Shown: piece by piece, positions 28,613-46,664 of the stretch
Position numbering within the stretch: the first letter of the stretch is position 1
Layout of the letters: each line of letters begins with the position of its first letter
Source of the DNA: Burkholderia ubonensis
GTDB lineage: Bacteria; Pseudomonadota; Gammaproteobacteria; Burkholderiales; Burkholderiaceae
NCBI RefSeq assembly: GCF_001718695.1
Contig: NZ_CP013420.1
Location: 1,302,001-1,366,000 of the forward strand
Direction of reading: 5' to 3'
Length of the DNA: 64,000 nucleotides
The notes under the pieces: generated by a model
Databases searched by the model: none
The model's input: the letters and a program-made list of their open reading frames with translations, nothing else
Told to the model about the DNA's origin: nothing
Translations under genes and position numbers: made by a program

Positions 28613-28725
28613 AACCTGCCCTATCCGTCGCCAAACGGAGGGGTGGGCAGGCATACAGCGAGGTTGGCGAACCGGAACGAAGGAACCGGCAGACCCGAAG
28701 GTCTCCCCACTGCTGCCCGCCCATA
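28613..28725 (-). ncRNA. c4-type antisense RNA (phage immunity RNA)
   Basis: On the minus strand the leader of the 28592 operon contains AGACC-TTCG-GGTCT, then GGTTCGCCAACCTCGCTGTA, then a CCTGCCC...GGGCAGG stem around TCCGT-TTGGCG-ACGGA. This matches my memory of the C4 antisense RNA family of P1/P7 and P4-like phages. A segment GGTTCCTTCGTT (28687-28676) can pair with the Shine-Dalgarno region AACGAAGGAGCC (28607-28596) over 12 nt with one G.U, the expected mode of c4 action. Boundaries are approximate. Confidence 0.68.
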
Positions 28726-28753
28726 AAAGGAGGACGCAATGATACAACGGACG

Positions 28754-28778
28754 AAAAAATACCGCCTAGGGCGGCGGT
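28754..28778 (-). terminator. Terminator insulating the c4 region
   Basis: Minus-strand stem ACCGCC/GGCGGT (28778-28773 with 28766-28761) with a six-base loop, followed by a U run (28759-28754). It would stop leftward transcription entering from the right and so isolate c4 transcription. Confidence 0.5.
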
Positions 28779-28987
28779 CTCATCCGCCTTCGTTCCAGGT
28801 CGCCAAACCCGGCGCTTGTTGTTTCAAGCGCAATACAACTGTAGTTCCACGGCTTGCGAACGTCAAGTCACATTTCGACGATGCGAGCCATTTCATGGCC
28901 CTACATCTACAATCGCCACAACGATTTACTTCAGGTCTACATAACAACCCATCAAAAATAGTAGCGGTGCTATTGCTCCATCACGAC

Positions 28988-33660: not shown

Positions 33661-34863
33661 TCACGCAGCCTCCTTCTCAGTGGGCCTGGTGGTCGCCCAG
33701 GTTCTCCAAATAGTCCCCCACCACTGCATCATTTTCCGGCGCTCCGGCAGGTACTCCGCATGGTTGTACGCAGCCCGGACGCCGTCGCGCTCGCTGTGCG
33801 CCAGTTGGCGCTCAATCCAGTCCCGGTTGAAATTGTGCTCATTCAGGATAGTCGACGCGAGGCCCCGGAAGCCGTGCCCCGTCATCCGTGAGTGGTAGCC
33901 CATCCGGTACAAGGCGTACAGGATCGTGTTCTCGCTCATCGGCTTCTTGGAGCTCGACCGACTCGGGAACAGGAACTGGCTGCGGCCGTTCAGTTCGCGG
34001 AGTTTCGCGATCACCTCGAGGGTCTGCTTCGACAGCGGCACGATATGCGGCGTGCGCATCTTCATCTTCTCGGCCGGGATGCGCCACTCCTTCTTCTTCT
34101 CGTCGATCTCAGTCCACTCAGCGAACCGCAGCTCGCTCGTACGAACAAATGTCAGCGCCATGAACTGCAGCGCCAGGCGCGTCTGCAAGTCGCCGTCGTA
34201 CGCGCTGATCTTCTGCATGAGTTCCGGCAGTTCAGCCTCGCTCACGCGTTTCATGTGCACGACGGAACGGGTCTTCAGCGCGCCGCGGAGATCGGGAGCG
34301 GGGTCGCGCTCTGCCCGGCCGGTGGCAATGGCGTATCGAAAGATCTGGCTCGTTGCCTGAATAGTCTTGTGTGCGAGCTCGATCGCACCGCGCGACTCTA
34401 TCTTTCGGATCACTGCAAGCAGCTCCGGCGCCGAGACATCGGCGATCGGTCGTGCACCGAGTCCCGGAAACAACTCGCGCTCGAGTAGCTTCATGATTCG
34501 TACAGCGTGGCCCTCACTCCACGACTGCTTTCGCTGTTCATGCCACTCCCTAGCGATGGGCTCGAACGAATTCACGCGGTCCAGGCTGCGCTGTGCCTTC
34601 ACACGCTTCTTTTCGTGCGATGGATCCAGACCGCCGCGCAACTGCTCCTTGATCTCATCTCGGGCCTTACGCGCAGCCAGCAAGGTCACGGCCGGATAGA
34701 CCCCGAGGGCCATCCGTTTCTCCTTACCGTCGATGCGATACTTCAACCGCCAGTACTTCGAGCCGTTCGGCATGACCTCGAGGTACATGCCTTGGCCGTC
34801 GGCCAGCTTGTAGGACTTTTCGAGAGGCTTGGCCGCACGGACGGCGACATCGGTAAGGGGCAT
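33661..34863 (-). CDS. int: Tyrosine site-specific integrase
   Basis: 400 aa. N-terminal DUF4102/arm domain (VRAAKPLEKSYKLADGQGMYLEV), core-binding region, then catalytic domain with RTSELRFAEW (first Arg, about 243), HGFRGLAST (His and Arg, about 330), LAHSERDGVRAAYNHAEY (His and nucleophile Tyr near the end). P4-type integrase. The 5' end faces the tRNA-Leu gene, as usual when int lies beside its attachment site. It catalyses integration into, and with an excisionase excision from, the 3' end of the tRNA. Confidence 0.92.
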   Translation of the reverse strand: MPLTDVAVRAAKPLEKSYKLADGQGMYLEVMPNGSKYWRLKYRIDGKEKRMALGVYPAVTLLAARKARDEIKEQLRGGLDPSHEKKRVKAQRSLDRVNSFEPIAREWHEQRKQSWSEGHAVRIMKLLERELFPGLGARPIADVSAPELLAVIRKIESRGAIELAHKTIQATSQIFRYAIATGRAERDPAPDLRGALKTRSVVHMKRVSEAELPELMQKISAYDGDLQTRLALQFMALTFVRTSELRFAEWTEIDEKKKEWRIPAEKMKMRTPHIVPLSKQTLEVIAKLRELNGRSQFLFPSRSSSKKPMSENTILYALYRMGYHSRMTGHGFRGLASTILNEHNFNRDWIERQLAHSERDGVRAAYNHAEYLPERRKMMQWWGTIWRTWATTRPTEKEAA

Positions 34864-35035: not shown

Positions 35036-35372
35036 TGGTGCCGGGGACCGGACTCGAACCGGCAAGCCAGTTAAGGCGGCGGATTTTCGTCACACTGCTT
35101 CTTTCGAAGCCGGCCACGCCTGGGCGACGCCGTTCGTGCGCTGGACTATGCCTTCGCCATCGCGCGCGGGCTCGCTTGGTGGCCCGTGCGCCTTAGGCGC
35201 CCCCCGTCTAGTCTCTACACCTTCCTCGCGTGCGCCGCGAGGCTTGGCTCGGCGTTGCCTCGATGCCGTGCATCAGGGGTTTCGCCGAATTTGAAGGGTT
35301 CTGCACCGGCCGTTTCCGGCCGGGCACTCAATCTTTTAAGTCCGCTATGTTTACCAATTTCATCACCCCGGC
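35036..35372 (-). tRNA. tRNA-Leu(UAA) split by a group I intron; prophage attachment site
   Basis: 5' exon 35372-35338 (starts GCCGGGG) and 3' exon 35087-35036 (ends CCCCGGCACCA, CCA encoded). Acceptor GCCGGGG pairs with CCCCGGC; anticodon stem GCGGA/TCCGC; loop CTT|AAAA gives anticodon UAA, with the intron inserted between U34 and A35. A variable arm (GCCTTAACTGGC) fits tRNA-Leu. The 3' exon lies at the prophage border, so phage integration has left the tRNA intact. Mature length 87 nt. Confidence 0.9.
35088..35337 (-). other. Group I self-splicing intron in tRNA-Leu(UAA)
   Basis: 250 nt. The core R element (GTGTAGAGACTAGACGG, 35220-35204) and S element (AAGGCATAGTCC, 35154-35143) match group I introns, and the segment AGGAAGGTGTAGAGACTAGACGG resembles cyanobacterial tRNA-Leu introns. 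P1 is visible: exon CUU plus intron AA pairs with UUGAG (intron nt 7-11), with the conserved U34.G9 wobble at the 5' splice site. The last intron base is G. No open reading frame for a homing endonuclease fits. Confidence 0.88.
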
Positions 35373-46531: not shown

Positions 46532-46640
46532 CGCTTGCTAACGCGGGGGTCCTGCAATGCGCCCGGTCAACAAACCGGCAATTGCGGGTGAGAAATACCC
46601 TTTGAACCTGATCTGGATAATGCCAGCGCAGGGAAGCGTA
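46532..46640 (+). promoter_or_regulatory. TPP (thiamine pyrophosphate) riboswitch
   Basis: THI-element signatures: GCGGGGGTCCTG, then GGGTGAGAAATACCC, TTTGAACCTGATCTGGATAA and CAGCGCAGGGAAGC. About 90 bp upstream of thiC; binds TPP and lowers thiC expression. Confidence 0.9.
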
Positions 46641-46664
46641 CGGGCTTCGCCGCCATCCCTCTGA

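Follow-up and report, generated by a model that had tools for sequence, protein, structure and literature searches.

A tRNA-Leu(UAA) gene of Burkholderia ubonensis that holds both a group I intron and a prophage attachment site, and its counterparts in other bacteria, phages and plasmids

Can a single tRNA gene be split in its anticodon loop by a group I intron, serve at its 3′ end as the attachment site of a prophage, and still provide a tRNA on which the cell depends? The question is raised by a locus in the window analysed here, a stretch of 64,000 nucleotides from the genome of Burkholderia ubonensis (6.68 Mb in 3 contigs). The answer that we favour, with a probability of about 94%, is that the split gene and its group I intron supply the UUA-decoding tRNA of the cell and that a temperate phage has integrated independently at the last 14 nt of the gene. 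A preliminary description of this DNA had proposed that a prophage and a group I intron share one tRNA locus, and both elements are located there.

When introns are allowed, ARAGORN reports a tRNA-Leu(taa) at 35036-35372 on the minus strand, consisting of 87 nt of tRNA including CCA and a 250-nt intron; this is exactly the extent of the intron-split gene that had been proposed. The same program run without introns over the 64-kb window reports no tRNA anywhere, and an intron-free search is likewise blank at all ten of the related loci tried. Because such a search reports nothing, an apparently essential tRNA looks absent and the attachment site is missed. A splice finder, introduced below, sets the 5′ splice site after nt 34 in a loop reading CTTAAAA, which puts the intron between U34 and A35. 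At the other end the junction of intron and 3′ exon reads ...GUGUGACG/AAAAUCC, so that the intron terminates in G. The predicted spliced product is a cloverleaf with a UAA anticodon, a long variable arm and CCA, as expected of tRNA-Leu(UAA). The intron is small and contains no ORF. Scans for a consensus promoter or terminator around the gene, which are weak by nature, found none. The positions of the features are given in Table 1.

Table 1. Positions in the window of the tRNA exons, the intron with its core helices, and the prophage features.
Feature	Position	Strand	Basis
5′ exon of tRNA-Leu(UAA), 35 nt, ending ...GGACUU, last U = U34	35338-35372	-	ARAGORN with introns; splice finder agrees
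Group I intron, 250 nt, starts AAAAG, last base G	35088-35337	-	ARAGORN; Rfam Intron_gpI 33.2 bits, below gathering score; covariation
P3 5′ strand CCCUUC, pairing with GGGGGG at 35205-35200	35293-35298	-	cells 100% paired; 4/6 pairs change both sides
P3 3′ strand GGGGGG	35200-35205	-	pair counts over 40 relatives
P4 5′ strand UCGGC, pairing with GCCGA at 35253-35249	35284-35288	-	cells 98.5% paired; 4/5 pairs invariant, 1 changes both sides
P4 3′ strand GCCGA	35249-35253	-	pair counts over 40 relatives
P7 5′ strand GACUA, pairing with UAGUC at 35148-35144; pseudoknot with P3	35209-35213	-	cells 100% paired; 3/5 pairs change both sides
P7 3′ strand UAGUC	35144-35148	-	pair counts over 40 relatives
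P8 5′ strand CGCC, pairing with GGCG at 35158-35155	35196-35199	-	cells 99.4% paired; 3/4 pairs change both sides
P8 3′ strand GGCG	35155-35158	-	pair counts over 40 relatives
P9 5′ strand CGCAC, pairing with GUGUG at 35095-35091	35136-35140	-	cells 96.5% paired; 4/5 pairs change both sides
P9 3′ strand GUGUG	35091-35095	-	pair counts over 40 relatives
3′ exon of tRNA-Leu(UAA) with encoded CCA, 52 nt	35036-35087	-	ARAGORN
attR, attachment core at the tRNA end, TGGTGCCGGGGACC, 14 nt	35036-35049		exact repeat; unoccupied junction in G064
Part of the 38.1-kb prophage within the window	1-35035		PHROGs; borders from att repeats
Tyrosine integrase, 400 aa, adjoining the tRNA 3′ end	33661-34863	-	Pfam Phage_integrase, Phage_int_M, Arm-DNA-bind_3; PHROG integrase

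The Rfam family Intron_gpI (RF00028) matches the gene at 35347-35192 with 33.2 bits (E 1e-6), below the gathering score of 50, which is a database threshold and was not treated as defining for group I introns. No other match of this family in the genome reaches E ≤0.001; in 14 control genomes, Intron_gpI was found in four and exceeded the cut-off in two. A structure of 49 pairs (P1, P2, P3, P4, P5, P6, P6a, P7, P8, P9, P9a) was placed by hand on the window's intron and counted over 40 aligned sequences from Burkholderiaceae, other bacteria, viral contigs, one phage record and one resistance plasmid. Pairs are formed in 96.0% of 1,958 cells, as compared to 78.7% in shuffled alignments and at most 42.2% in slid versions of the structure, and the covariation score, 0.472, compares with 0.150 after shuffling and with no more than 0.087 after sliding; the slid control favours the structure, since this was drawn on one of the 40 sequences. 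Both sides change in 30 of the 49 pairs (shuffled mean 22.7), an example being P7, which reads GACUA/UAGUC in some sequences and GAGCA/UGCUC in others. The absence of the P3-P8 helices had been named beforehand as one observation that would speak against a group I intron; P3 and P7 are paired in 100% of cells, with double changes in 4/6 and 3/5 of their pairs, respectively. P1 is weaker, its outermost pair being broken in 16/40 sequences. The pair at the 5′ splice site is U.G in the window, as first noticed, and in 37/40 of the aligned sequences; the remaining three have C-G and are Leu(CAA) introns. By its structure, with a P3-P8 core, a P3/P7 pseudoknot and strong covariation, the window's intron is a group I intron. 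It may belong to subgroup IC3, which it resembles, and it is presumably self-splicing.

The dependence of the cell on this gene can be judged from the rest of the genome, which holds 66 Rfam tRNA matches. Thirteen of these reach 80 nt or more, namely Leu(CAG) (three), Leu(UAG), Leu(GAG) (two), Leu(CAA), Ser (four), Tyr and SeC; none of the thirteen is an unsplit Leu(UAA), and a pattern for the anticodon arm of an unsplit Leu(UAA), with up to one mismatch, found nothing in the genome. Since the split gene is the only tRNA-Leu(UAA) found, the reading of UUA should need splicing. The full 337-nt gene is present in 65/65 Burkholderia genomes searched (own genome included) at 83-100% identity, and all 39 genus loci that were fetched are resolved by the splice finder to Leu(UAA) with the same splice site. 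In the mechanism proposed here, a chromosomal tRNA-Leu(UAA), split between U34 and A35 by a small ORF-less group I intron that occupies this place throughout the genus as searched, would become the UUA-decoding tRNA of the cell through self-splicing. In the host genes that flank the insertions, UUA accounts for 0.72 (left) and 0.64 (right) per 1000 codons, counted over ORFs chosen heuristically by length and codon-position GC; given this rarity, slow splicing may be tolerated.

The other half of the locus is the prophage. The preliminary description held that the 3′ end of the tRNA is an attachment site and that integration keeps the 3′ exon intact, and it advised comparison with a prophage-free strain. 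The core TGGTGCCGGGGACC is exactly the last 14 nt of the tRNA (attR), and a second copy, attL, lies 38,098 bp away at C1:1298938-1298951 of the genome, about 3 kb before the first base of the window; no second site was found inside the window, and a genome search with an 18-nt pattern was too long to find the partner of a 14-nt core. The relative G064 has the stretch to the left of attL with 99.7% identity across 1,517 nt; this stretch runs as far as the core and is joined there directly to the tRNA in an unoccupied junction; the inserted length is thereby 38,098 bp. The two att sites and the G064 junction have exactly the core in common and diverge on either side of it as integration predicts. 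The proposed attachment site is thereby confirmed. The phage core replaces the last 14 nt by identical ones, so that tRNA and intron stay intact in sequence, as had been expected of the 3′ exon, and presumably in expression. The core belongs to the acceptor end and is clear of the intron; an integrase directed at the anticodon loop would find its target split. Between about 10.4 and 34.9 kb, PHROGs identifies genes for an integrase, a primase/helicase, a terminase, a portal or head-tail adaptor, a major head protein and a tail fibre. The temperate phage integrated at the last 14 nt of the tRNA-Leu(UAA) gene, presumably through its tyrosine integrase. Rfam also reports, above gathering, a C4 antisense RNA and an isrK-like RNA adjacent to each other in the prophage (28639-28831, minus strand), perhaps a phage immunity region. 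An Rfam match elsewhere in the window is a TPP riboswitch (46535-46652, plus strand).

To judge from neighbouring sequences, the tRNA-Leu site is used by other integrating elements too. Searched with the window's integrase, 3/38 genus loci show integrase-like sequence no more than 1.5 kb from the tRNA, and integrase queries in five genomes looked at place an integrase beside the tRNA in G014 and G053. In 4/5 viral contigs with the GAGCA-type P7 motif, a tyrosine integrase lies at most about 160 nt downstream of an intron-split tRNA-Leu on the same strand. G014, G015, G016 and G028 have further copies of the tRNA 3′ end close to the gene, but these were rejected as attachment sites, being inverted and without the exact core.

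That both elements occupy one gene, and that phages elsewhere carry an intron-split tRNA-Leu(UAA), could point to a functional link, in which, for instance, splicing limits the decoding of UUA in the prophage or the phage delivered the intron. We consider this very improbable. UUA use in the prophage is not raised (0.52 per 1000 codons vs 0.64-0.72 in host genes), and regulation of the prophage by splicing through UUA codons was rejected on this count. The intron occurs in every one of the 65 genus genomes and groups with betaproteobacterial introns, and G064 has it without this prophage at the site; the genus-wide presence and G064 together make the shared locus no evidence of a link, and neither UUA use nor genus distribution nor the G064 comparison revealed one. 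Beyond the prophage, a stretch of about 12 kb has 3.02 UUA per 1000 codons, a value from five ORFs only.

A chance origin of the 14-nt repeat, with the border of the prophage elsewhere, is slightly less credible still than a functional link. The repeat is short, another 14-nt repeat off any boundary appeared in the same comparison, and the extra 12 kb or so between the prophage and the conserved host flank means that host synteny alone does not fix the border. However, the repeat begins exactly at the CCA end, and in G064 the sequence left of attL runs straight into the tRNA at the core. The intervening stretch (C1:1286891-1298938, L004) is of lower GC and holds porin, TssF, VgrG-like, DUF4123 and VasX-N-type genes, with genes of type VI secretion type among its content; its right end adjoins the tRNA in G064. 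The host flank beyond it is found at most 1.5 kb downstream of the tRNA in 7/29 relatives (L013, L017, L019, L020, L023, L029, L030).

The least credible alternative treats the intron as a degenerate relic and the tRNA as a pseudogene, with UUA read by another tRNA. It would agree with the Rfam score below gathering and with the great rarity of UUA in host genes, but it is contradicted by the compensatory changes in P3, P7, P8 and P9, by exons that still form a tRNA in 39/39 fetched genus loci (with CCA in the 30 inspected for it), by the retention of a split tRNA-Leu(UAA) in the insect symbiont Candidatus Vallotia, whose genome is small, and by the lack of an unsplit copy in the own genome.

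The split gene resembles several known systems. The tRNA-Leu(UAA) (trnL) intron of cyanobacteria and plastids interrupts the same tRNA and is likewise a small group I intron of the anticodon loop without an ORF; it belongs to different host lineages, and our tree contains no cyanobacterial sequence. Its insertion site is U34/A35, as in the window's gene. The tRNA-Ile(CAU) intron of Azoarcus is, like ours, a betaproteobacterial anticodon-loop intron, with a core sequence that presumably resembles that of the window, but it lies in another tRNA, and the loci resolved here as CAU are mostly split after nt 36 and some after nt 33. Introns of alphaproteobacterial tRNA-Arg(CCU) (Agrobacterium; BbgpI in Bartonella) are also cases of an unannotated intron-split tRNA, in a different tRNA and at a different site; BbgpI is reported to splice in vivo and in vitro (PMC7717549). 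Within the genus itself, the tRNAscan-SE 2.0 paper mentions group I introns of tRNA-Ile2 in Acidovorax and Burkholderia that are missed by tRNA software (PMC8450103); these are in Ile2 and not in Leu(UAA). As to the attachment site, Cluster J mycobacteriophages are described as temperate, with an integration cassette and an attB in tRNA-Leu (PMC3706429); their core measures 44 bp and their attB reaches the anticodon loop, whereas the core of the window's prophage is 14 nt long, belongs to the acceptor end and does not touch the intron. Among the titles and abstract openings listed from the open-licence literature, a scope outside which most subscription journals lie, none concerned Leu(UAA) introns beyond cyanobacteria and plastids. 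The background of the preliminary description, with Leu introns in cyanobacteria and plastids and Ile and Arg introns in proteobacteria, proves too narrow, as Leu(UAA) introns occur in all Burkholderia genomes searched, in other phyla, in phages and in plasmids.

In the family Burkholderiaceae, 299 genomes were searched; among the matches listed, full-length ones occur by our own count in at least 15 of 25 genera, some being Leu(CAA). Many genomes match in the 3′ exon only, the result expected of an unsplit tRNA-Leu. When the end of the 5′ exon was modelled together with the first 145 nt or so of the intron, the model, used with filters that lose weak matches, hit 47/300 genomes in the order, 45/274 in the class and 27/299 in the phylum; these hits include other tRNAs, i.e., Leu(CAA), Ile2/Met(CAU), Arg(CCU) and Ser(UGA). 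According to ARAGORN, group I introns are present in tRNA-Ser(UGA) in other genomes of the order (L084, L087, L091), and a Thr(UGU) intron locus was met at genus level (L058).

A motif scan of named species genomes, which is not a census, gave at least 120 stretches. The isotypes called by ARAGORN on distant loci (Tyr, Phe, Ser, Gln) are unreliable, and a splice finder was written for this reason; it solved 96 of the 120 listed stretches, 75 as Leu(UAA) split after U34 and 21 otherwise, leaving 24 unsolved. Its labels other than Leu are doubtful, L085 being Arg(CCU) by ARAGORN and another isotype by the splice finder. The 75 real Leu(UAA) solutions score 19-20; 600 random positions in the same loci yielded 26 solutions with scores of 15-20, of which five were Leu(UAA), a control that overstates chance because a part of the random positions must fall close to the true gene. 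By phylum the 75 comprise Pseudomonadota (55), Acidobacteriota (5), Planctomycetota (4), Bacteroidota (4), Bdellovibrionota (2), Binatota (1), Bacillota (1) and Chloroflexota (1), with two without phylum. Three loci filed as bacterial fall beside viral introns and may be of phage origin (L351 on a 9.2-kb contig, L383 on a 6.5-kb contig, and L395, 98.8 kb, the sole Bacillota); this doubt applies to the Bacillota stretch, to one of the Bacteroidota and to one of the Bdellovibrionota.

The window's locus as query gave no match in named phages; viral copies were reached by the motif scan, and named-phage copies from these. The 20-base core motif occurs in at least 120 viral contigs, which are predicted viruses, and 47 of the 120 listed resolve to a split Leu(UAA), many of them beside other tRNA genes. 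Neighbouring ORFs were checked in ten contigs, including L203, which does not hold a tRNA-Leu. Hallmark genes of phages adjoin the split gene in L175 (rIIA/rIIB) and L215 (portal), a tRNA-His guanylyltransferase and a LAGLIDADG-type ORF lie near it in L225, and several neighbours on these contigs have no informative match. Atu_ph07, an isolated 490-kb Agrobacterium phage, carries a split tRNA-Leu(UAA) at L407:1495-1856, where its record annotates no tRNA. Two huge-phage records also carry a split tRNA-Leu(UAA) (L408, L412), and in one of them, of 595 kb, the intron of the gene at L412:868-1654 encloses an ORF of 189 aa (L412:940-1509) that matches HNH in Pfam. At the matches in pYD6-A, AD45-P1, Kolpuevirus and cr116_1, no tRNA could be recognised. 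The word "intron" is absent from the main text of both the Atu_ph07 paper (PMC6102473) and the huge-phage paper (PMC7162821), and a 2014 review states that phage introns were then known in protein genes only (PMC3984707). Split tRNA genes in phages make the spread of ORF-less tRNA introns a directly testable question.

Plasmids carry the gene too. In plasmid p6Inc a split tRNA-Leu(UAA) lies at L037:2886-3186 beside an AAA ATPase gene and aac(3)-IId, such gene neighbours having been looked at in two plasmid records only. Among 72,556 plasmid records, 1,299 match its 301-nt split gene, 1,266 of these at ≥99%. So do 635 of 5,426 genomes of E. coli; in the five of these records that were listed, no feature is annotated at the split tRNA. 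In Candidatus Vallotia and in Mycetohabitans, the split gene is on a plasmid or megaplasmid (L039, L040).

The relationships of these introns were approached with a tree of 176 introns, built by a quick method without bootstrap and with no cyanobacterial row, in which long branches meet; of the 39 genus loci, 35 were set aside, as were a few other Burkholderia loci, all duplicates, and loci whose tRNA was of another type or could not be solved. The window's intron falls in a set of 24 rows (SH-aLRT 95) whose named hosts, where an order is given, belong to the Burkholderiales, Rhodocyclales or Nitrosomonadales, together with one viral row on a long branch. The viral Leu(UAA) rows entail nine label changes, at least four of them forced by well supported branches, and 31 of these rows form one viral clade. 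Being a quick tree without cyanobacteria and with several long-branch joins, it allows but does not show transfer from phage to host. That phages and plasmids were the vehicles which brought the ORF-less tRNA-Leu(UAA) group I intron into many bacterial phyla is a tentative reading, to which we give somewhat poorer than even odds. Phage tRNA arrays, with a split tRNA-Leu(UAA) and in one case a putative HNH endonuclease ORF inside the intron, would be the source; by recombination between the conserved exons of the tRNA, the intron would enter the tRNA genes of hosts; after its fixation and the loss of its endonuclease, it would persist, as it may have done in the window's gene; and it could even have moved to tRNA-Leu(CAA), which would need C-G in place of U.G at the 5′ splice site. 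Such a possible spread by phages is a larger lead than the window's intron itself.

The tRNA-Leu(CAA) genes with a group I intron have C34 before the intron (L050-L055, L057, L061, L066 and L118, with L057 and L061 by ARAGORN only), and in the three that were aligned C34 stands opposite the same G. A full-length or nearly full-length Leu(UAA)-type match is also present in G108, G114, G130, G139, G148, G156 and G238. Eight cellular Leu(CAA) rows make up one side of a branch in the tree (95), consistent with a single origin of these introns; L249, a viral row that bears the label Leu(CAA), is placed elsewhere, on a very long branch. To our knowledge, U.G at the 5′ splice site is otherwise nearly universal among group I introns, and the Leu(CAA) branch offers natural C-G splice sites that are useful for asking why.
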